This document shows positions 55,099-63,012 of a stretch of DNA of 64,000 bases, piece after piece (the stretch's first letter is position 1; the number at the start of each line of letters is the position of its first letter). Source of the DNA: Aurantiacibacter rhizosphaerae (GTDB taxonomy: Bacteria; Pseudomonadota; Alphaproteobacteria; Sphingomonadales; Sphingomonadaceae); assembly GCF_009807005.1 (NCBI RefSeq), contig NZ_WUBR01000001.1, positions 1,240,001 through 1,304,000 of the forward strand. The letters run 5' to 3'. Position numbers and translations under genes: made by a program. The notes under the pieces are model-generated. The model ran no database searches. It worked only from the letters and a program-made list of their open reading frames with translations, and was not told where the DNA came from.

Positions 55099-55175
55099 GC
55101 GCCCATAGCTCAGCTGGATAGAGCACGGGACTTCTAATCCTGAGGCCGCAGGTTCGACTCCTGCTGGGCGCGCCA
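55099..55175 (+). tRNA. tRNA-Arg (anticodon TCT), integration site of the island
   Basis: The sequence starts GCGCCCATAGCTCAGCTGGA and ends TGGGCGC-G-CCA. The acceptor arms GCGCCCA/TGGGCGC pair perfectly; the anticodon loop is ACTTCTAAT with TCT. It is 77 nt with encoded CCA. A tyrosine recombinase starts 97 bp downstream, the usual geometry of an attL in a tRNA 3' end. Confidence 0.96.
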
Positions 55176-55272: not shown

Positions 55273-56961
55273 ATGACATCAAAACGGAAAGGTATCGAAG
55301 GCTTTCCATACCTTCGACAGCGCGGGCGAAGCTACGAAGTTCGCCTTCAGGTTCCACGCCCACTAAAAGCGGCAGTGGGAAAAGGGGAATTGAAGAAATC
55401 GCTCGGCGGCGATCTAGCCGCTGCGAAGCGGGCATACCACCGGACCGTCTCGGAGCTTCAAAAACCGATTGATAGAGCCAGAGGCGCATTTCCGCAGCTA
55501 GATGTAGCATCCCATATGCCACGAGAGCCGAGCTTGGATGACATAGAGATTTCATCATACCATCATTATTGCCGCATGGTTGAGTTGCAGCGTGGCAAGG
55601 TGGTTTCGCTTCAAGGGGAGACCCAATCGACCCGACAAGGACGGATTGCCAGCCTGGAAGAGACTTTGCTCTATCATGTGGACAGGGCGGAGGCCGAAGA
55701 TTGGGGAATTATGGACATCCAAGCGCGCTGGAAGATCGAAGAGATGGGCTGGGTGCTCTCCGAAAAGTCGCCACGCTTCAAATACCTCTGCGAAATGCTT
55801 CTCCGCGCCCGCCTCGAAGCCTATCGCACCGAGCTTCGGAAGCTAAATGGCCATTTTGCGCCCGATCCTGAAGCGGACCCGCTGTTTGCCGCCAACCCCG
55901 AGAAAGACGCCAAGCTCGTAACTACCCTCGGCGACTTAAAAAAAGGGTTTGAAGCGGAGAAACATGAGCATTGGTCGCTATCGACGCGAAAGAATTACAA
56001 AATCATCTTCGCAGTTTTAGAGCAGATTTGTGGCTTTGATACTCCTGTTTCTGCTATTGATCGAGACTATTGTCGGGACATTGCCAAGCGGCTGGCAGGC
56101 TTGCCTGTCAACTATCAGAAGTCACCTCTCACTAGGGGACGGTCAGTAGCCGAAGCTATCGAGATTGCTCATTCCCACGAGATGAAGACAATCGCTCCGG
56201 CAACGATCAACAGCCATCTCGGCAAGCTCGGGGCGATTGTCCGTTACGGTCGTGACAAGGGCTGGATCGCAGGCAATCCTACGGCTGATTTGCAGGTTCC
56301 AGACCCCATCGACCCATCCGAAAAGCGTGATCCATTCACCATCGAGCAGTTGAACCTTGTTTTCGCCCGATCACCTTGGAGCGATAATGGTGTAAGCACC
56401 AAGGAGCGACCTTCACGATATTGGGCACCGTTGGCCGCCCTTTTTTCCGGGGCGCGCTTGACCGAGATTTGCGGTCAGCGTGTCGATGAGATGATCATTG
56501 AAGAAGGCATCCACGCCTTTCATTTTCGACATCGTCCCGACGACAGAGCGATCAAGAATGGTAAGAGTAGGAAGGTGCCAGTCCATCCAGAACTTTTGAG
56601 GCTCGGCTTTTGGGATTTCGTCGTTGAGGCGCAAACAGCAGGGCGCGAACACCTGTTTCCCGATGTGAAACCCGACAAGCTAGGAAAGTGGGGGGATCAC
56701 ACATCAAAATGGTTCTCTCGACAGGTGAAGTCCCTCGATCTTAAGGGGCGTAATCTGTCGTTTCATAGTTTCCGCCACAGTTTCGAGGATGCTCTACGAC
56801 GAGCCGATTTGCACGACACGCCGATAGGCAATGCTCTCACAGGGAGGTGGACCGCAGGCGTGTCAAAGAGTTATGGATCGAAGTATCCGGTGGGGAAATT
56901 GCATCAGGCGCTGATTGAGGTGGGGTATCCGGGACTGATTTCACCAGAGCCGTGGTCGTAA
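55273..56961 (+). CDS. Tyrosine-type site-specific recombinase (integrase)
   Basis: A 562-residue phage-type integrase. The N-terminal region (IEGFPYLRQRGRSYEVRLQVP) resembles the DUF6538 integrase lead domain. A SAM-like core-binding part is in the middle. Catalytic residues are Arg in SGARLTEICG, His-x-x-Arg in SFHSFRHSF, and the nucleophile Tyr in KSYGSKY. It sits directly after tRNA-Arg and points into the island, so it presumably made the insertion. A GAGGA stands before ATG 55273. Confidence 0.92.
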   Translation: MTSKRKGIEGFPYLRQRGRSYEVRLQVPRPLKAAVGKGELKKSLGGDLAAAKRAYHRTVSELQKPIDRARGAFPQLDVASHMPREPSLDDIEISSYHHYCRMVELQRGKVVSLQGETQSTRQGRIASLEETLLYHVDRAEAEDWGIMDIQARWKIEEMGWVLSEKSPRFKYLCEMLLRARLEAYRTELRKLNGHFAPDPEADPLFAANPEKDAKLVTTLGDLKKGFEAEKHEHWSLSTRKNYKIIFAVLEQICGFDTPVSAIDRDYCRDIAKRLAGLPVNYQKSPLTRGRSVAEAIEIAHSHEMKTIAPATINSHLGKLGAIVRYGRDKGWIAGNPTADLQVPDPIDPSEKRDPFTIEQLNLVFARSPWSDNGVSTKERPSRYWAPLAALFSGARLTEICGQRVDEMIIEEGIHAFHFRHRPDDRAIKNGKSRKVPVHPELLRLGFWDFVVEAQTAGREHLFPDVKPDKLGKWGDHTSKWFSRQVKSLDLKGRNLSFHSFRHSFEDALRRADLHDTPIGNALTGRWTAGVSKSYGSKYPVGKLHQALIEVGYPGLISPEPWS

Positions 56962-57125: not shown

Positions 57126-57968
57126 ATGGCGCTCAGGTTCAATATGCTGTTGCAAGACGAGGGTTACGATCCTCGCGAAGTGCGGTTGCTGCGTCACCAG
57201 CACGTGGCCAAAGACGGATTGACGCCTTATGCCCTCTGGCGAGACAGGCCGGGGGAGTTCGAGCGTTACCAGAGTGCGCAAAAATCCGACCGGAGCGCAT
57301 ACTTCGCCAGCCGTTATTGGGCCGCATTTGTCGTGCCTCCTGACGGCTCGACATTGTTCGTCGGGCTTTATGAGATTGGCGATTGTGCCCCGGTTGCAAC
57401 TGACTGGATAGACCCGCTGATGCGGCAAACCTCGACGCAAATTGGCAGGGCGCTGGACATCTATCAGTTCGAGCGAGTTCCCGCGTTTGACCATTACGCT
57501 GGGAGAGTTCGGGTCGAGTGGGGCGACGGGACCAGAGCGTGGGCGCAACGGGCGAGCAATCGAAAGGGCGACAAGCCGGTGGTGGAGCTTGCTCGTGAGT
57601 TCCGAGAACCCGATTTCCCCGGCTTCACCAATTTCATCGGCAATTTCGGTGGGCTTCCCAGCTTACCGCAATCTTGGGTCATGGCATTATCCGCCGCGCG
57701 CGGTGTCTATTTGCTCACGTGCCCCCGCACATTTGAGCAGTATGTCGGTTCGGCTTGCGGCACTGAAGGCTTTTGGGGACGCTGGAAAGATTATGCGGTG
57801 ACTGGCCATGGCGGTAACATTCGCCTCAAGAGCAGAGATGCCTCGGATTATCAGGTAAGCATCTTGGAAGTCGCCGGTTCCGCTGCGACCACGGAGCAAA
57901 TCCTCGCGATGGAACAGCTATGGAAGCGCAAGCTTCAAAGCCGGGATATGGGGCTTAATGCCAACTAG
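57126..57968 (+). CDS. GIY-YIG-domain nuclease, N-terminal domain of unknown type
   Basis: A 280-residue protein. The C-terminal third is a GIY-YIG domain: GVYLLTCP (193-200), YVGSA (206-210), Arg219 in WGRWKDY, Glu263 in AMEQLWKRKL, and the final Asn in GLNAN, so all catalytic positions are filled. The first 190 residues are of unrecognised type and may read DNA or a second signal. GGAGAG before ATG 57126 is better than the TTG at 57111. Restriction enzymes (Eco29kI type) and homing nucleases use this fold. The winged-helix gene follows 11 bp later. Confidence 0.82.
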   Translation: MALRFNMLLQDEGYDPREVRLLRHQHVAKDGLTPYALWRDRPGEFERYQSAQKSDRSAYFASRYWAAFVVPPDGSTLFVGLYEIGDCAPVATDWIDPLMRQTSTQIGRALDIYQFERVPAFDHYAGRVRVEWGDGTRAWAQRASNRKGDKPVVELAREFREPDFPGFTNFIGNFGGLPSLPQSWVMALSAARGVYLLTCPRTFEQYVGSACGTEGFWGRWKDYAVTGHGGNIRLKSRDASDYQVSILEVAGSAATTEQILAMEQLWKRKLQSRDMGLNAN

Positions 57969-57979
57969 GGGAGAAGGGC

Positions 57980-58339
57980 ATGTCATTGCAGCGCGCACAC
58001 AAGCAAGAAGATGTCGAGGATGTGATCTTGGAGGTTCTTGAACCGGGGCATGCGAGAACTACGCAGGAAATCTATGCAGCGGTTCGTCGCCGCCTCAATC
58101 TCACACCCGACGATTTGGAGCGAGCGAACAAGCGGGACGAAAGCAAGATCAATCAGATCATTGCTAATGCGCTTCAGGGCAAGCGCAGGCTATGCCGGAA
58201 TGGATTAATCGTGCGAACTGGCGTGGGCGAGTTCAGGATTACCGAGGCTGGCTGCACTTACCTAGACAAACATCGGGCATCGGTCGCAGAAGGTTTAAAA
58301 CTGCTCGACGGAATGTTCCTGGATACAAGCAGGGACTAG
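57980..58339 (+). CDS. Winged-helix protein resembling the Mrr N-terminal domain
   Basis: A 119-residue protein of winged-helix type: HARTTQEIYAAVRRRLNLTPDD, then INQIIANALQGKRRLCRNGL and EFRITEAGCTYL, which follow the pattern of the N-terminal domain of Mrr-type restriction proteins. No nuclease domain is attached. It is coupled to the GIY-YIG gene (11 bp) and could be its DNA-reading partner or its regulator. Confidence 0.7.
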   Translation: MSLQRAHKQEDVEDVILEVLEPGHARTTQEIYAAVRRRLNLTPDDLERANKRDESKINQIIANALQGKRRLCRNGLIVRTGVGEFRITEAGCTYLDKHRASVAEGLKLLDGMFLDTSRD

Positions 58340-58657: not shown

Positions 58658-59617
58658 ATGAAATCCCTTGAACTTTGCGCAGGTGCGGGCGGGCAAGCCC
58701 TAGGATTAGAGCAAGCTGGCTTCGAGCACGTTGCGCTGGTCGAGAATGACGCGCATTGCTGCGCGACACTCCGTAAGAACAGACCAAGTTGGAATGTGAT
58801 CGAGGATGACGTTCGATCCTTTAAAAAGGTCGCCAACGAGTATTCGGGGATCGAATTGGTCGCCGGTGGACTACCGTGCCCTCCTTTTTCCAAGGCTGGC
58901 AAACAGTTGGGAGAGAAAGACGAGAGAAACCTCTTTCCAGACGCACTTGAGATTATCGACACCATAAGACCTAAGGCGGTGATGATCGAAAACGTGCGCG
59001 GGTTCCTAGATGGAGCGTTCGAGGACTACCGCCGTGAATTGAAGTCGCAACTCGAAGGGATGGACTACGAAGTCGATTGGGACCTCTTGAATGCGTCAAA
59101 GTTCGGAGTTCCTCAGCTTCGGCCCCGTGTCATTATCGTTGCTATGCAGAGGCAATTGTGGCCTCATTTCCAATGGCCAAGCGGGTTGGAGAAGCCTCCT
59201 AAGACCGTCGGAGAGACGCTCTACAAGCTCATGTCGGCCAATGACTGGATCGGTGCGAAGGCATGGAAAGAGCGTGCGGATGATATTGCTCCAACAATTG
59301 TCGGCGGATCAAAAAAGCATGGTGGACCTGACCTCGGTCCAACTCGTGCAAAGGCCGCTTGGGCCACCCTCGGCGTGAACGGAAAAACCATTGCCGAAGA
59401 AGCGCCCGAGCGGGATTTTGTCGGCATGCCGCGTCTCACAGTTGAGATGGTTGCTCGTATCCAGGGCTTCCCTCCTCGATGGAACTTTGTGGGTCGTAAA
59501 ACCGCTGCATATCGTCAGGTTGGCAACGCTTTCCCACCACCAGTTGCAAATGCCGTTGGCACAAAGATCCGTGAAGCAATTGAGGCAGCCGAACGCAAAG
59601 CCTTAAAGGCCGCTTGA
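58658..59617 (+). CDS. DNA C5-cytosine methyltransferase (type II R-M)
   Basis: A 319-residue C5-MTase. Motif I is ELCAGAGGQALGL (5-17), motif IV GGLPCPPFSKAGKQ with catalytic Cys74, motif VI MIENVRGF (E111), motif VIII QLRPR (153-157) and motif X QVGNAFPPP (287-295). Between VIII and X is a short target-recognition segment, so the protein is compact. Its neighbour is a NaeI-family nuclease; NaeI cuts GCCGGC, so GCCGGC is a plausible shared target, which the compact TRD does not prove. It should protect host DNA. Confidence 0.93.
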   Translation: MKSLELCAGAGGQALGLEQAGFEHVALVENDAHCCATLRKNRPSWNVIEDDVRSFKKVANEYSGIELVAGGLPCPPFSKAGKQLGEKDERNLFPDALEIIDTIRPKAVMIENVRGFLDGAFEDYRRELKSQLEGMDYEVDWDLLNASKFGVPQLRPRVIIVAMQRQLWPHFQWPSGLEKPPKTVGETLYKLMSANDWIGAKAWKERADDIAPTIVGGSKKHGGPDLGPTRAKAAWATLGVNGKTIAEEAPERDFVGMPRLTVEMVARIQGFPPRWNFVGRKTAAYRQVGNAFPPPVANAVGTKIREAIEAAERKALKAA

Positions 59618-59669
59618 GCCTTCCAAATTTCGTTCGATGATTGCATACCGCCTCCATTAGGAGGCCGGT

Positions 59670-60569
59670 TTGAAATCGAACATTCCAGAGAGCAAGATCG
59701 TTGAAGGACATCCGCGTTTTTCACTGCTGTCAGCAATGAAAGATGATCTGATCAATAGGGCGGGCGCCCTTCGATCCATTTGCTCAGAGATCCCGCCCTT
59801 ACTTAGGGAAGCGATTGATGTGGTAATAGATACCCCACGGACGGGACGCCGCGATTACGAGGATCTCGAAAAGACAGAGAAAACCTACATCGGCACACGT
59901 GTGGAGATCCTTGTCAGATCGTATTTCCGGCTTCCGAAGGGTAAGCTGGATTTGCTCCTATTGGGACAAGACGCCGACGTTAAATTCACCACGAAGAATA
60001 ACTGGATGATACCACGAGAGGCTGTTGGTAAGCCCTGTCTTTTGCTGGCTGCCGATGAAGCTGAGGCGAAGTGCTACTTCGGATTGTTCTGTGCCGATGA
60101 AGAGTATCTTACTGCCGGGGCAAATCAGGATAAAAAGCGTCAGGTATCTGCCGAAGGCTTCGGGCACATCCTATGGGTATTTTGCAAGCATCCGTTGCAA
60201 CCTAATTTTTGGAGGACAATTGCAGAGGCGTCTGCTGAAGCAGTCGCGGTTCAGAGAACTGGGAACGACCGTGTTGTAACGCTTTTTCGAGAAGTTCAGG
60301 GCATACCGATTGCCAGAGAGGTGGTAGAGGCGACGGCCCGTCAGAAAGACTTCATGCGTAGGATACGAGCAGACAATGGACGCGGGACCAGAGACCGACT
60401 GGCGAAGGAAGGAATTTTGCTTCTGTCCGGAACTTATGATGCAACTGCAATCGCAGCGCTGGGCTTGCCGCCTACTGGAAAGAGCGAATTCGTCTCGCAC
60501 GCCCCGGACGCTGCGCAGTTCAAGGTGGTTCCTAGACGCTCAATCCCCGACAGCTTCGTTCTAAAATGA
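59670..60569 (+). CDS. NaeI-family type II restriction endonuclease
   Basis: A 299-residue nuclease. Its active site follows the NaeI pattern: D94 and D103 with the D-x8-D-x-K spacing (LDLLLLGQDADVKF, K105) and an upstream Glu79; NWMIPREAVGKPCLLLAADE follows. I recall NaeI active-site residues as E70, D86, D95 and K97, which this spacing matches closely. NaeI has a second, topoisomerase-like DNA-binding domain; the C-terminal half here is of that size. ATG-like start is GTG/TTG-type region at 59670, 52 bp after the methylase stop. Its stop overlaps the next gene (ATGA). Confidence 0.85.
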   Translation: MKSNIPESKIVEGHPRFSLLSAMKDDLINRAGALRSICSEIPPLLREAIDVVIDTPRTGRRDYEDLEKTEKTYIGTRVEILVRSYFRLPKGKLDLLLLGQDADVKFTTKNNWMIPREAVGKPCLLLAADEAEAKCYFGLFCADEEYLTAGANQDKKRQVSAEGFGHILWVFCKHPLQPNFWRTIAEASAEAVAVQRTGNDRVVTLFREVQGIPIAREVVEATARQKDFMRRIRADNGRGTRDRLAKEGILLLSGTYDATAIAALGLPPTGKSEFVSHAPDAAQFKVVPRRSIPDSFVLK

Positions 60570-61159
60570 AGAGTGGCGAGGTATTGAAGCGGCTGAAGAA
60601 GGATGGCCCTGTTAGGTTCGTCGAACAAATCCTGTTCGATGATAACGCATGGTATTTTCCTACCAGAAGCGGAGCAGAATATGCGGACTTCAAAAGCGGC
60701 TTCGCGCCAGTTTTCGGGGTTTCTTCGCCTGAAATCGCCGTTGTTGGTAGCGCTAAGTTCGGTTTTAGCCTAGCACCCCAAAAAGGATTTCGTGCTTTTC
60801 AGCCGAGCGATGAGGAACCCAATCCATCAGATCTTGACGTGGTGATTGTATCCCGACCAATTTTCAATGAGACATGGCACCAATTGCGCAGAGCGCACTA
60901 CCAGGGTGCAATCAACGCGAGAGAGTTTTTTCAAGAAGACGTGTTTCGCAGATTTATCATGATCGGGGCTGATGATGAGCGGGACACCCATTATCTTCGC
61001 GATCTATCTCGCTTAATGGACCGGGTGCGTAAGGAAGCGACAACAAAATTCGGCATAACGCAAACGATCAAAATGCGTGTCTACGCCTCGTGGACAGATG
61101 CTAAAGCATATCACATTTGGAGCATGCAAAAATTGGCGGAGCATCATGGGATACAATAG
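60566..61159 (+). CDS. Nucleotidyltransferase-like protein coupled to the NaeI gene
   Basis: A 197-residue protein. IAVVGSAKFGFSLAP (57-71) and PSDLDVVIVS (87-96) match the GS...D-x-D layout of minimal nucleotidyltransferase folds, with D89 and D91 as likely metal ligands. A Lys/Arg-rich C-terminus follows. ATG 60566 overlaps the nuclease stop by 4 bp, and its stop lies 14 bp inside the DUF262 gene. It might make or transfer a nucleotide signal, as in other anti-phage systems, or modify a target; neither is shown. Confidence 0.65.
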   Translation: MKSGEVLKRLKKDGPVRFVEQILFDDNAWYFPTRSGAEYADFKSGFAPVFGVSSPEIAVVGSAKFGFSLAPQKGFRAFQPSDEEPNPSDLDVVIVSRPIFNETWHQLRRAHYQGAINAREFFQEDVFRRFIMIGADDERDTHYLRDLSRLMDRVRKEATTKFGITQTIKMRVYASWTDAKAYHIWSMQKLAEHHGIQ

Positions 61160-62228
61160 CGAAATCCAACCATCACGCCCAAATGTGACCGAGATCGTAA
61201 ACAAGATGCGGTCAGGGGATTATTTCGTCGATCCTTCATTTCAACGTCGTTTGGTCTGGAACGAGAAGCAAAAAGTCCGCCTGATAGAGACGGTGCTTAT
61301 GGAATATCCGATGCCCGAAATTTATCTTTGGGAGCAAGCGCCAGACCCTCAATCTGGATCGCAGAAATTTAGCATCGTTGACGGCCAACAGCGTCTCTCT
61401 ACTCTCCGCGAATTCACTAGTAACGAATGGCCTCTCAAAAAAGCCTATCTCGATGAAGAGAATGCGGAAAAAGATTTTGCGGACTGCTTCTGGAAGGATT
61501 TAGACGCTGATACTCGATCAAAGTTCTTTCAATACAGCATCAATGCGCGCCGCATCCCTAGCGAGGTCTCCGATGACGATATACGGCAAATGTTTGCTCG
61601 ACTTAATGAGACCGACCGCTCACTCAATCCGCAAGAGATGCGCAACGCTACGCTGAACGGTGAATTTCTCGCCGCGGCGAACTCACTTGCAGATACCGAT
61701 GAGTTTCTCGCTCTCCAAATTTTCTCTCTGGACAATATACGCCGGATGGGGGACGTCGAGTTCGCCAGCCAGCTTCTCGGCTACGAGAGAAAGGGGATAG
61801 CGAATGACACCCCGAAAACGATGAACGAACTCTATAATGAATTCAATGATGACTACTCGGAAGCGGAAATTGATAAGGCGAATGTTTCAAAGTCTCTGAA
61901 ACTCGTCAATGAGGTGTTTCTAGACGAGGAGATAGAGGCGTTTTTCGCGACCCAGAACTACGTATATACACTCCACTCACTTTTCGATGTATGTGAGGAA
62001 AAGCCAGCAGATCAATGGCGTGCAGGACTTTTGGGCTTTGTTCAGGCCTATGCAGGCCTCCCCGCGAATGATGATGATGTGAAAGAGGATCAGAAAAGTC
62101 TTGCGGAGTTCAGAAAAGGCGCAAGTTCTCGCACCCGGAGTAAGTCTAGTCGAACCCAGCGACTTTTCGGCTTAAAGAATTGGTTGGCGCAAAATTTTCC
62201 AGAGCTTATTGAAGATAAGGATAGCTGA
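61146..62228 (+). CDS. DUF262 (GmrS/ParB-like) protein
   Basis: A 360-residue protein. The DUF262 signature is present: VDPSFQRRLVWNEKQKVRLI (about 28-47) and IVDGQQRLSTL with the DGQQR motif at 79-83. DUF262 occurs in GmrSD type IV restriction and in several anti-phage systems; here it lacks the DUF1524 HNH nuclease part. ATG 61146 starts inside the previous gene (14-bp overlap), so four consecutive genes from the methylase on are one compact unit. An HNH-less DUF262 may be a nucleotide-sensing or DNA-nicking partner. Confidence 0.85.
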   Translation: MGYNSEIQPSRPNVTEIVNKMRSGDYFVDPSFQRRLVWNEKQKVRLIETVLMEYPMPEIYLWEQAPDPQSGSQKFSIVDGQQRLSTLREFTSNEWPLKKAYLDEENAEKDFADCFWKDLDADTRSKFFQYSINARRIPSEVSDDDIRQMFARLNETDRSLNPQEMRNATLNGEFLAAANSLADTDEFLALQIFSLDNIRRMGDVEFASQLLGYERKGIANDTPKTMNELYNEFNDDYSEAEIDKANVSKSLKLVNEVFLDEEIEAFFATQNYVYTLHSLFDVCEEKPADQWRAGLLGFVQAYAGLPANDDDVKEDQKSLAEFRKGASSRTRSKSSRTQRLFGLKNWLAQNFPELIEDKDS

Positions 62229-62286: not shown

Positions 62287-63012
62287 CTAAGCTCGTAAAC
62301 CTTCAATCGACCAGCGCACGACGTCCTCCCGGGTGTCACTTCCCCAAACGGACAAATGAGGCACATTCCCAAACCGAACGTAAAAGCCAAATGCTGAGGC
62401 CTCACCACGGTGGGCTTGCCACTTGCCATGGTCTGCGCTTCGACTTTCTTGCGAAATTATTTCAATGCCAGATGCAAAGTGTTCGATATGGCCGAACGTC
62501 ATCAGAAAAAGCGGTTCAATCGCTTCAATGAACATCTTATGCACCGGCTCACATAGCTTCACTGCTCCTCTATAGCCGGGATGGGTTGCAACGCCGGTCG
62601 ATCTTGTAAAGGCTAGGTTGGAGGCGGGAGTAGATCGCGTAGCTACGCCCATCTCCCCGCAAAGAGCTTTAATTCGACGTTGCATCGTCGATTGGCCTTT
62701 CGGCAGAATGTGCCCGCCCGGTGCCCATTCTTCATCTAAAAAGGCATTGTTTCCGCGCCGTGAAGCGTCAATGCTGTCCTGCAAGGTCGAACTCTCGGAC
62801 CCTCCTGGATTTAAGCCTAAAAGATAAACCGGACCTTTCGTTAAAGTCTCATCAGAGGAGTAAAGAACCGCGCCGGGACGATTGATTAGGCCAATATCCG
62901 ATAGATAAATCTCTGCGTTATCGAGCACATCACTCATATCATCGTATTCCTTCCGATTAGCCTCTGCGATCCTAGTAACTATCGAGTGCACTAGGCCCTG
63001 CTCATGTGACAC
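62287..63012 (-). CDS. Uracil-DNA-glycosylase-like protein
   Basis: A 241-residue protein with UDG-superfamily features: VYLLGLNPGGSES (63-75) matches the water-activating GLNPG motif, and HPGYRG and VPHLSVW later in the protein fit the second half. It is not a standard Ung. GTG 63012 has AGGAGA at good spacing. It is transcribed towards the DUF262 gene. In phage-defence islands such proteins can attack modified phage DNA; here that is inference. Confidence 0.65.
   Translation of the reverse strand: MSHEQGLVHSIVTRIAEANRKEYDDMSDVLDNAEIYLSDIGLINRPGAVLYSSDETLTKGPVYLLGLNPGGSESSTLQDSIDASRRGNNAFLDEEWAPGGHILPKGQSTMQRRIKALCGEMGVATRSTPASNLAFTRSTGVATHPGYRGAVKLCEPVHKMFIEAIEPLFLMTFGHIEHFASGIEIISQESRSADHGKWQAHRGEASAFGFYVRFGNVPHLSVWGSDTREDVVRWSIEGLRA

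Follow-up and report, generated by a model that had tools for sequence, protein, structure and literature searches.

The subject of this analysis is a run of four genes at positions 58,658 to 62,228 of a 64,000-nucleotide stretch of the Aurantiacibacter rhizosphaerae genome (contig NZ_WUBR01000001.1, positions 1,240,001 to 1,304,000; hereafter the window). A NaeI-type restriction system is followed there by the genes for a nucleotidyltransferase-like (NTase-like) protein and a DUF262 protein. The four genes, with lengths in amino acids (aa), are as follows.

58658-59617, forward strand: C5-cytosine DNA methyltransferase (MTase), 319 aa (open reading frame call, Pfam)
59670-60569, forward strand: NaeI-family type II restriction endonuclease, 299 aa, with a TTG start behind AGGAGG
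60566-61159, forward strand: NTase-like protein, 197 aa, probable pol-beta-type nucleotidyltransferase (motif, weak profile matches)
61146-62228, forward strand: DUF262/GmrSD_N protein, 360 aa, without a recognised nuclease domain (Pfam)

The open reading frame calls confirmed what the first-pass annotation had read from the letters, namely that the four genes are consecutive and that the last three overlap, by 4 bp for NaeI and NTase (60566-60569) and by 14 bp for NTase and DUF262 (61146-61159). The identical order recurs in locus L002 (Aquimixticola), and again in L004 with two additional genes between NaeI and NTase, so that the arrangement is more than chance. A promoter scan returned 0 promoters against 2.6 expected.

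The MTase matches Pfam DNA_methylase at 5.5e-67. When 27 MTases were compared, its identity to proteobacterial MTases adjoining NaeI or NgoMIV was 62-73%, except for that of L005 (54%). The values for the MTases of L030 (Rhodococcus, NaeI) and of two actinobacterial NgoMIV systems (L032 and L034) were 54% and 31%, respectively. The nuclease matches Pfam NaeI (PF09126) at 2.1e-57, with 195 bits against a curated cut-off of 25. Residues D94, D103 and K105, which we take to be the catalytic D/DxK residues, are present in the window protein and kept in 19 of the 20 aligned NaeI proteins. A NaeI-like protein without the D, D and K of the other 19 is encoded in a DUF262-HEPN-MTase-NaeI operon (L075:6799-7575, minus strand), and may be either decayed or a nuclease retained for binding only. 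HNH-type genes were seen beside or inside NaeI loci at L069:6049-6936, L070:6653-7462 (HNH-like by eye) and L030:5082-5789 (annotated HNH endonuclease), and a Vsr gene adjoins NaeI systems in several loci. NaeI cuts its site as GCC|GGC. Because the nuclease belongs to the NaeI family and the methylase family is common to proteobacterial NgoMIV systems, GCCGGC is the predicted target of the window MTase and NaeI. According to PMC4081073, in which the NaeI site is misprinted by a slip, NaeI is a type IIE enzyme of the beta branch and shares its site with NgoMIV, a type IIF enzyme of the alpha branch.

No significant Pfam match was obtained for the NTase-like protein, the best being DUF6932 (E 0.079), and PADLOC gave 0 matches for it at E ≤ 10. 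A search of 5.8 billion proteins with the single sequence produced 17 matches, its own record included. With a 14-row profile the number rose to 185 at E ≤ 0.001, again with the window protein among them; 120 of these were listed and 26 of those 120 were used in the NTase tree. Residues G61, S62, D89 and D91, forming a GS...SDxD motif, are the same in all 94 relatives of the alignment. NTP_transf_2 is touched by 10 of these 94 members (best E 0.018) and the unrelated DUF6881 by 11. Using hhalign, the motif was aligned onto the same motif of 20 NTP_transf_2 domains, which by their length we read as mostly GlnD, with a pairwise E of 0.012 and a probability of 3.6%; the controls NaeI and DUF262 gave E values of 0.19 and 0.31, respectively, and three SMODS proteins gave 0.54. 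SMODS is absent from the 25 shown of the 30 families matched by NTase members, and phrog_32008 (function unknown) matches the NTase at 6.9e-08. Of eight family members scanned with PADLOC, six had no match and two showed weak touches of Cyclase or PDC-S09; the divergent relatives in L045 and L050 touch the Cyclase model weakly, at E 0.0054 and 0.025, respectively. The search of solved structures with the NTase profile returned 0 matches, and nothing was gained from phage records. The protein is probably a pol-beta-type nucleotidyltransferase.

The DUF262 protein matches Pfam GmrSD_N (3.7e-30, residues 15-170) and keeps the DGQQR motif. Eight window proteins were scanned with Pfam and PADLOC, the Pfam scan of the window neighbours being made at E ≤ 1. 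GmrSD_N was the only Pfam match of this protein, with no DUF1524/HNH match at that threshold, which bears out its first description as HNH-less. The best PADLOC match is NsnA (3.5e-44, profile positions 45-301 of 385) versus 2.5e-17 for PD-T4-2_A. The NsnA model is not specific, because the PD-T4-2_A proteins of L011, L015 and L075 match it as well, at 4.1e-60 to 2.9e-55. NsnA is presumably a Menshen gene name, and no mention of NsnA as a defence gene was found in the open-access literature. DUF262 is described as a domain that binds and hydrolyzes nucleoside triphosphate (NTP) in GmrSD, BrxU and SspE and is linked to the sensing of modified DNA (PMC10952713), and PMC8565348 supports its role as modification sensor and NTPase. 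PD-T4-2, Menshen and Dazbog carry DUF262 without DUF1524 (PMC10952713).

Sixteen loci of the NTase family were read: the window, L002, L003, L004, L005, L018, L026, L045, L049, L050 and L051-L056. L057 lies on the same contig as L005, L052 and L053 are near-copies, and L022 and L023 duplicate the stretches L027 and L028. DUF262 is directly downstream on the same strand in 15 of the 16, the exception being L045, which has a DUF4365 gene; in 14 of these pairs (all but that of L050) the genes for NTase and DUF262 are spaced by -14 to +11 bp. MTase and NaeI precede the pair in three loci (the window, L002 and L004, the last with a 262-aa protein and Vsr between NaeI and NTase), and MTase and NgoMIV precede it in one (L005, NgoMIV Pfam 6e-101). 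These are the four restriction-linked loci with readable flanks; the flanks of L003 are masked. A C5 methylase overlaps the NTase in L049, where no recognised nuclease was found; a 340-aa protein adjoins this locus. Relatives of these methylases and nucleases were not found in the other ten loci (L018, L026, L045, L050 and L051-L056), for which C5 methylases, NaeI, NgoMIV and Vsr served as reference proteins, so that other nucleases are possible, and among which L050 and L054 have little flanking sequence on one or both sides.

The pairs of L055 and L056 sit between Phage_GPA and Phage_portal and occupy the gpA-gpQ hotspot of P2-like prophages, gpA-gpQ being a defence hotspot of P2-like phages (PMC9122126). 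The L052/L053 pair is located elsewhere in a P2-like genome, near the baseplate V gene (L052) and the tail S gene (L053). At the level of sequence, NTase and DUF262 are thus a separable two-gene module. One obligate four-gene system is rejected because 10 of the 16 NTase loci are without relatives of these methylases and nucleases. Two other arrangements were seen among these loci. The Aliarcobacter plasmid pM830MA (L045:3845-6504) carries a distant NTase relative followed by a DUF4365 protein, not DUF262, with a PLD-like protein nearby. A NOV_C-domain protein (7.1e-19) is encoded directly upstream of a divergent NTase-DUF262 pair at L026:6287-7339.

NaeI was found in 6 of 385 genomes of the class, 4 of 398 of the phylum and 10 of 296 of the order; these sets overlap and include the window's genome, besides which there are 15 distinct NaeI genomes. 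A DUF262+HEPN pair adjoins NaeI in 3 of the 15 (L011, L015 and L075). The PADLOC matches to PD-T4-2 in these three are 3.1e-158, 1.4e-154 and 1e-149 for component A and 1.4e-58, 6.5e-51 and 7.7e-43 for component B, respectively, and in two of the B proteins the Pfam HEPN domain scores under the cut-off (3.4e-05 and 0.0013). Their DUF262 proteins form a clade of their own (100/99), apart from the NTase-linked ones. Deletion of PD-T4-2 in its native strain raised T4 plaquing (PMC9519451). One of the two NaeI plasmids (L030, Rhodococcus) has DUF262 and an annotated HEPN gene, the HEPN partner giving no PADLOC match. No DUF262 pair was found in the 8 plain NgoMIV plasmid stretches read, of 16 found. 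Of 72 DUF262 plasmid records, 6 were read as such (L018 and L030 were read for other reasons). A relative of the L005 DUF262 occurs at 24 places in 142 genomes; with 15 NaeI genes and a distance of 6 kb, random placement at this rough background rate would yield about 0.01. Because the queries differ and defence genes cluster, the excess is in truth less than this suggests. Judged from these loci, DUF262 pairs are taken up repeatedly by NaeI systems, and the partner differs (NTase, HEPN). A third type of partner, a protein-kinase gene after DUF262, was seen in L039, L040 and L044 (Pfam-checked for L039).

In the NTase tree, four restriction-linked and seven free-standing proteins lie on the two sides of a 100/98 branch, and because of this separation restriction linkage looks like a lineage trait. 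The NTase of L003 (masked) is on the linked side and that of L049 (methylase only) on the free side. The DUF262 proteins of the window, L002, L004, L005 and L003 form a 100/100 clade, and a GCCGGC-type system precedes the pair in 4 of its 4 readable loci; most near relatives are on contigs with unreadable flanks. The restriction genes group differently. The window NaeI is sister to that of L069 (100/99) and the window MTase to that of L070 (99/89), both from loci without the pair, and the L002 MTase groups with those of L012 and L029, again without the pair (100/99). A clade of window and L002, a pairing picked after the DUF262 tree had been seen, is rejected for MTase (p-AU 2.1e-05) and for NaeI (p-AU 1.9e-13). 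As the MTase and NaeI trees disagree with the cassette trees, the cassette has been gained, lost or exchanged on several backbones; on this evidence it changes restriction hosts. Left out of the trees were L053 (near-copy of L052), L026 (too divergent, NTase tree), L043 (DUF262 tree), and L072 and L074 (NaeI tree); L045 and L049 were in the NTase tree and assigned to neither group.

The four genes lie on a genomic island, of which the other features in the window are listed here.

55099-55175, forward strand: tRNA-Arg (TCT), island integration site, with an 18-bp end repeat
55273-56961, forward strand: tyrosine integrase of the island (Pfam DUF6538 3.5e-10; Phage_integrase 4.7e-05, below cut-off)
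57126-57968, forward strand: UzuA-like GIY-YIG protein, candidate defence gene (PADLOC UzuA 3.7e-80; Pfam GIY-YIG 0.019)
57980-58339, forward strand: Mrr_N-only protein, 119 aa (Pfam Mrr_N 1e-08)
62287-63012, minus strand: 241-aa protein, convergent, next after DUF262 (no Pfam, PADLOC or NCBIfam match at E ≤ 1)

The 18-bp repeat of the tRNA-Arg 3' end starts at 55159, and a second copy is found about 12.7 kb on, at the window-equivalent position 67847, outside the window. In the same-genus stretches L082 and L083 the matching flanks are about 270 and 410 bp apart, respectively; L084 was matched on the left side only. The UzuA-like and Mrr_N proteins were not kept as parts of the operon, neither having been found in the related loci scanned, and UzuA appears in the open-access literature only in passing as a defence gene. 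By eye only, the 241-aa protein is uracil-DNA-glycosylase-like, and a 480-aa protein at the far island end (L085:12100-13542, minus strand, outside the window) is reverse-transcriptase-like.

The window pair was compared with known systems. PD-T4-2 (Vassallo 2022) is likewise a two-gene pair of DUF262 and a partner, with a related DUF262 half; the partner differs, being an upstream NTase in the window and a downstream HEPN protein in PD-T4-2, and no HEPN match corresponding to component B was present among the window neighbours. Menshen combines a DUF262 gene with a predicted OLD nuclease (PMC10952713), and no OLD-type gene is among the eight window proteins scanned. The DUF262 gene of Dazbog, which is without DUF1524, is proposed to recognise methylated DNA (PMC10952713); no PADLOC match of that name was shown for the window, where gene names may differ and partners were compared by PADLOC only. 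The type IV enzymes GmrSD, BrxU and SspE have DUF262 with DGQQR in common with the window protein, which is without their DUF1524/HNH match. NaeI and NgoMIV type II systems share the methylase and nuclease core, and most versions read have no DUF262 pair.

Restriction systems with a linked second component also have precedents. PrrC-PrrI similarly joins a restriction system to a growth-arrest part (PMC3710099), although PrrI is type I and PrrC has an ABC-ATPase and a HEPN anticodon nuclease. PD-lambda-5 is named RM+Abi in PMC9519451 and is likened here by description only. In BREX with BrxU, a DUF262 protein complements a methylation-based system, the two together dealing with unmodified and with modified DNA (PMC8565348); BrxU itself cuts DNA, whereas the window DUF262 has no recognised nuclease domain. 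According to PMC3710099, HEPN effectors linked to restriction systems were proposed in 2013 as PrrC-like second lines, HEPN proteins of at least 16 clades are so linked, and MAE_28990 HEPN genes share an operon with ParB nuclease and DNA methylase genes. NaeI and DUF262 were not found together in the open-access literature (subscription papers and preprints were outside the search), nor was a DUF262 and nucleotidyltransferase pair described in the passages of it that were examined. The first-pass remark that no known system has this composition therefore holds for print as well, within that literature. DUF262 pairs are already known; what appears new here is a DUF262 defence pair that has an NTase as its partner and is attached to a restriction system of type II.

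From the sequence comparisons, the gene order and overlaps, the NTase motif, the DUF262 NTPase motif without a recognised nuclease, the pair as a unit, its two lineages and the discordant histories stand firm. The best explanation, which we hold tentatively and at slightly less than even confidence, is that a GCCGGC-type MTase/NaeI system carries in the same operon a separable NTase-DUF262 defence cassette that would act as a second defence layer. The first-pass suggestion that the extra pair could serve defence is plausible, because the parallel DUF262+HEPN pair beside NaeI matches the validated PD-T4-2. The DUF262 protein would be a sensor and regulator that binds and hydrolyzes NTP, and the NTase would be the effector, a role held by HEPN in PD-T4-2 and perhaps by the kinase in other DUF262 pairs. 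The NTase would transfer nucleotides to a host molecule, for which tRNA is our guess, and growth would stop. Phages resistant to cutting by the restriction arm would be covered by the cassette. Because NaeI and NgoMIV belong to different branches with one site and one methylase family, the cassette would read the GCCGGC site, its modification or the methylase, and not the nuclease. The preferred trigger would be modified-cytosine DNA that resists cutting (compare BrxU beside BREX), and the second choice would be collapse of the restriction system. In a bolder and more doubtful version, GCCGGC systems (NaeI/NgoMIV) would time and again take on a DUF262 sensor as a second line of their own, its partner being exchangeable (NTase in the window, HEPN in loci with PD-T4-2), and the linked NTase lineage would be specialised to read GCCGGC methylation or modification, nucleotidylate a host target and arrest growth.

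Several observations weigh against the explanation of a second defence layer with an NTase effector. The NTase may instead be a regulator, since its gene is upstream, as is that of the antitoxin MNT in MNT-HEPN pairs (PMC3710099), and HEPN is downstream in PD-T4-2 loci. D89 and D91 are the sole acidic invariant columns of the 94-row NTase alignment, and the assignment of the NTase depends on the motif and weak profile matches. The DUF262 and HEPN genes of L015 face the restriction genes, outside the operon. The restriction-linked loci with readable flanks number just four, and L045, which is without such restriction genes, is on the linked side of the NTase tree, on a very long and unsure branch with P0039 (81/74). 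The four-gene system proposed in the first-pass annotation does recur in its composition (L002 and L004; with NgoMIV in L005), but is not obligate: in addition to the 10 free NTase loci, a DUF262 pair is missing next to NaeI in 12 of the 15 other NaeI genomes, and 0 of these 15 have the NTase pair. Wide occurrence of the NTase and DUF262 genes away from NaeI and MTase, together with deletions of no effect on phage defence, had been named there as evidence against such a system; those 10 of 16 loci answer to this in part, although the linked and free NTases separate in the tree.

A PrrC-like fail-safe is the next explanation, although a rather unlikely one. The restriction proteins would keep NTase-DUF262 inactive until a phage inhibits the restriction system and thereby releases it. 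This would accord with PrrC-PrrI and with what has been proposed in general for restriction-linked HEPN genes (PMC3710099), with the overlap of NTase and NaeI in the window and with the separate DUF262 clade of the restriction-linked pairs. With NaeI of the beta and NgoMIV of the alpha branch (PMC4081073), however, different nucleases would have to hold one cassette, and related pairs exist without such restriction genes.

The pair might also be a toxin-antitoxin-like unit. Its two genes are small and overlap, it was met on a plasmid and prophage contigs as well as on the tRNA-integrated island, and the antitoxin MNT of MNT-HEPN pairs offers a model (PMC3710099). Toxicity would lie in DUF262 or its DNA binding, the upstream NTase would act as antitoxin or as regulator, for example through modification of DUF262, and stabilisation of the restriction genes or of the mobile element might be the main role. 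We consider this improbable: proven anti-phage systems contain relatives of the DUF262 part, two pairs are in a phage defence hotspot, and the fold and partner are unlike MNT-HEPN.

It is quite improbable that the pair is an unrelated defence unit that settled next to NaeI within a defence island and has no functional tie to it. The 4 of 4 readable loci of the DUF262 clade that follow a GCCGGC-type system are in different hosts and backbones, the gene overlaps are tight, and PD-T4-2 was gained separately beside NaeI; such hitch-hiking would nevertheless fit the other defence candidates of the island (UzuA, Mrr_N), the 10 of 16 NTase loci in which such restriction genes were not found and the position of L045 in the NTase tree. 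A CBASS-like system is not favoured, as no CBASS name was among the PADLOC matches shown for the window neighbours and CD-NTase similarity is weak at most, and neither is type IV restriction by DUF262 alone, as there is no DUF1524.

Restriction systems backed by suicide effectors are already known (PrrC). If the bolder version of the second-layer explanation is true, the type II restriction system of the window would have an NTase suicide arm built into it. Present tools would miss this NTase family, because PADLOC gives no match in six of eight members and a weak one in two. For experiments, a two-gene system is already at hand in the free-standing pairs of the P2-like hotspot, and the contrast of NaeI and NgoMIV contexts allows one to ask what the DUF262 sensor would read. 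In one small type II class, DUF262 pairs occur in two distinct lineages, each with a partner of its own.

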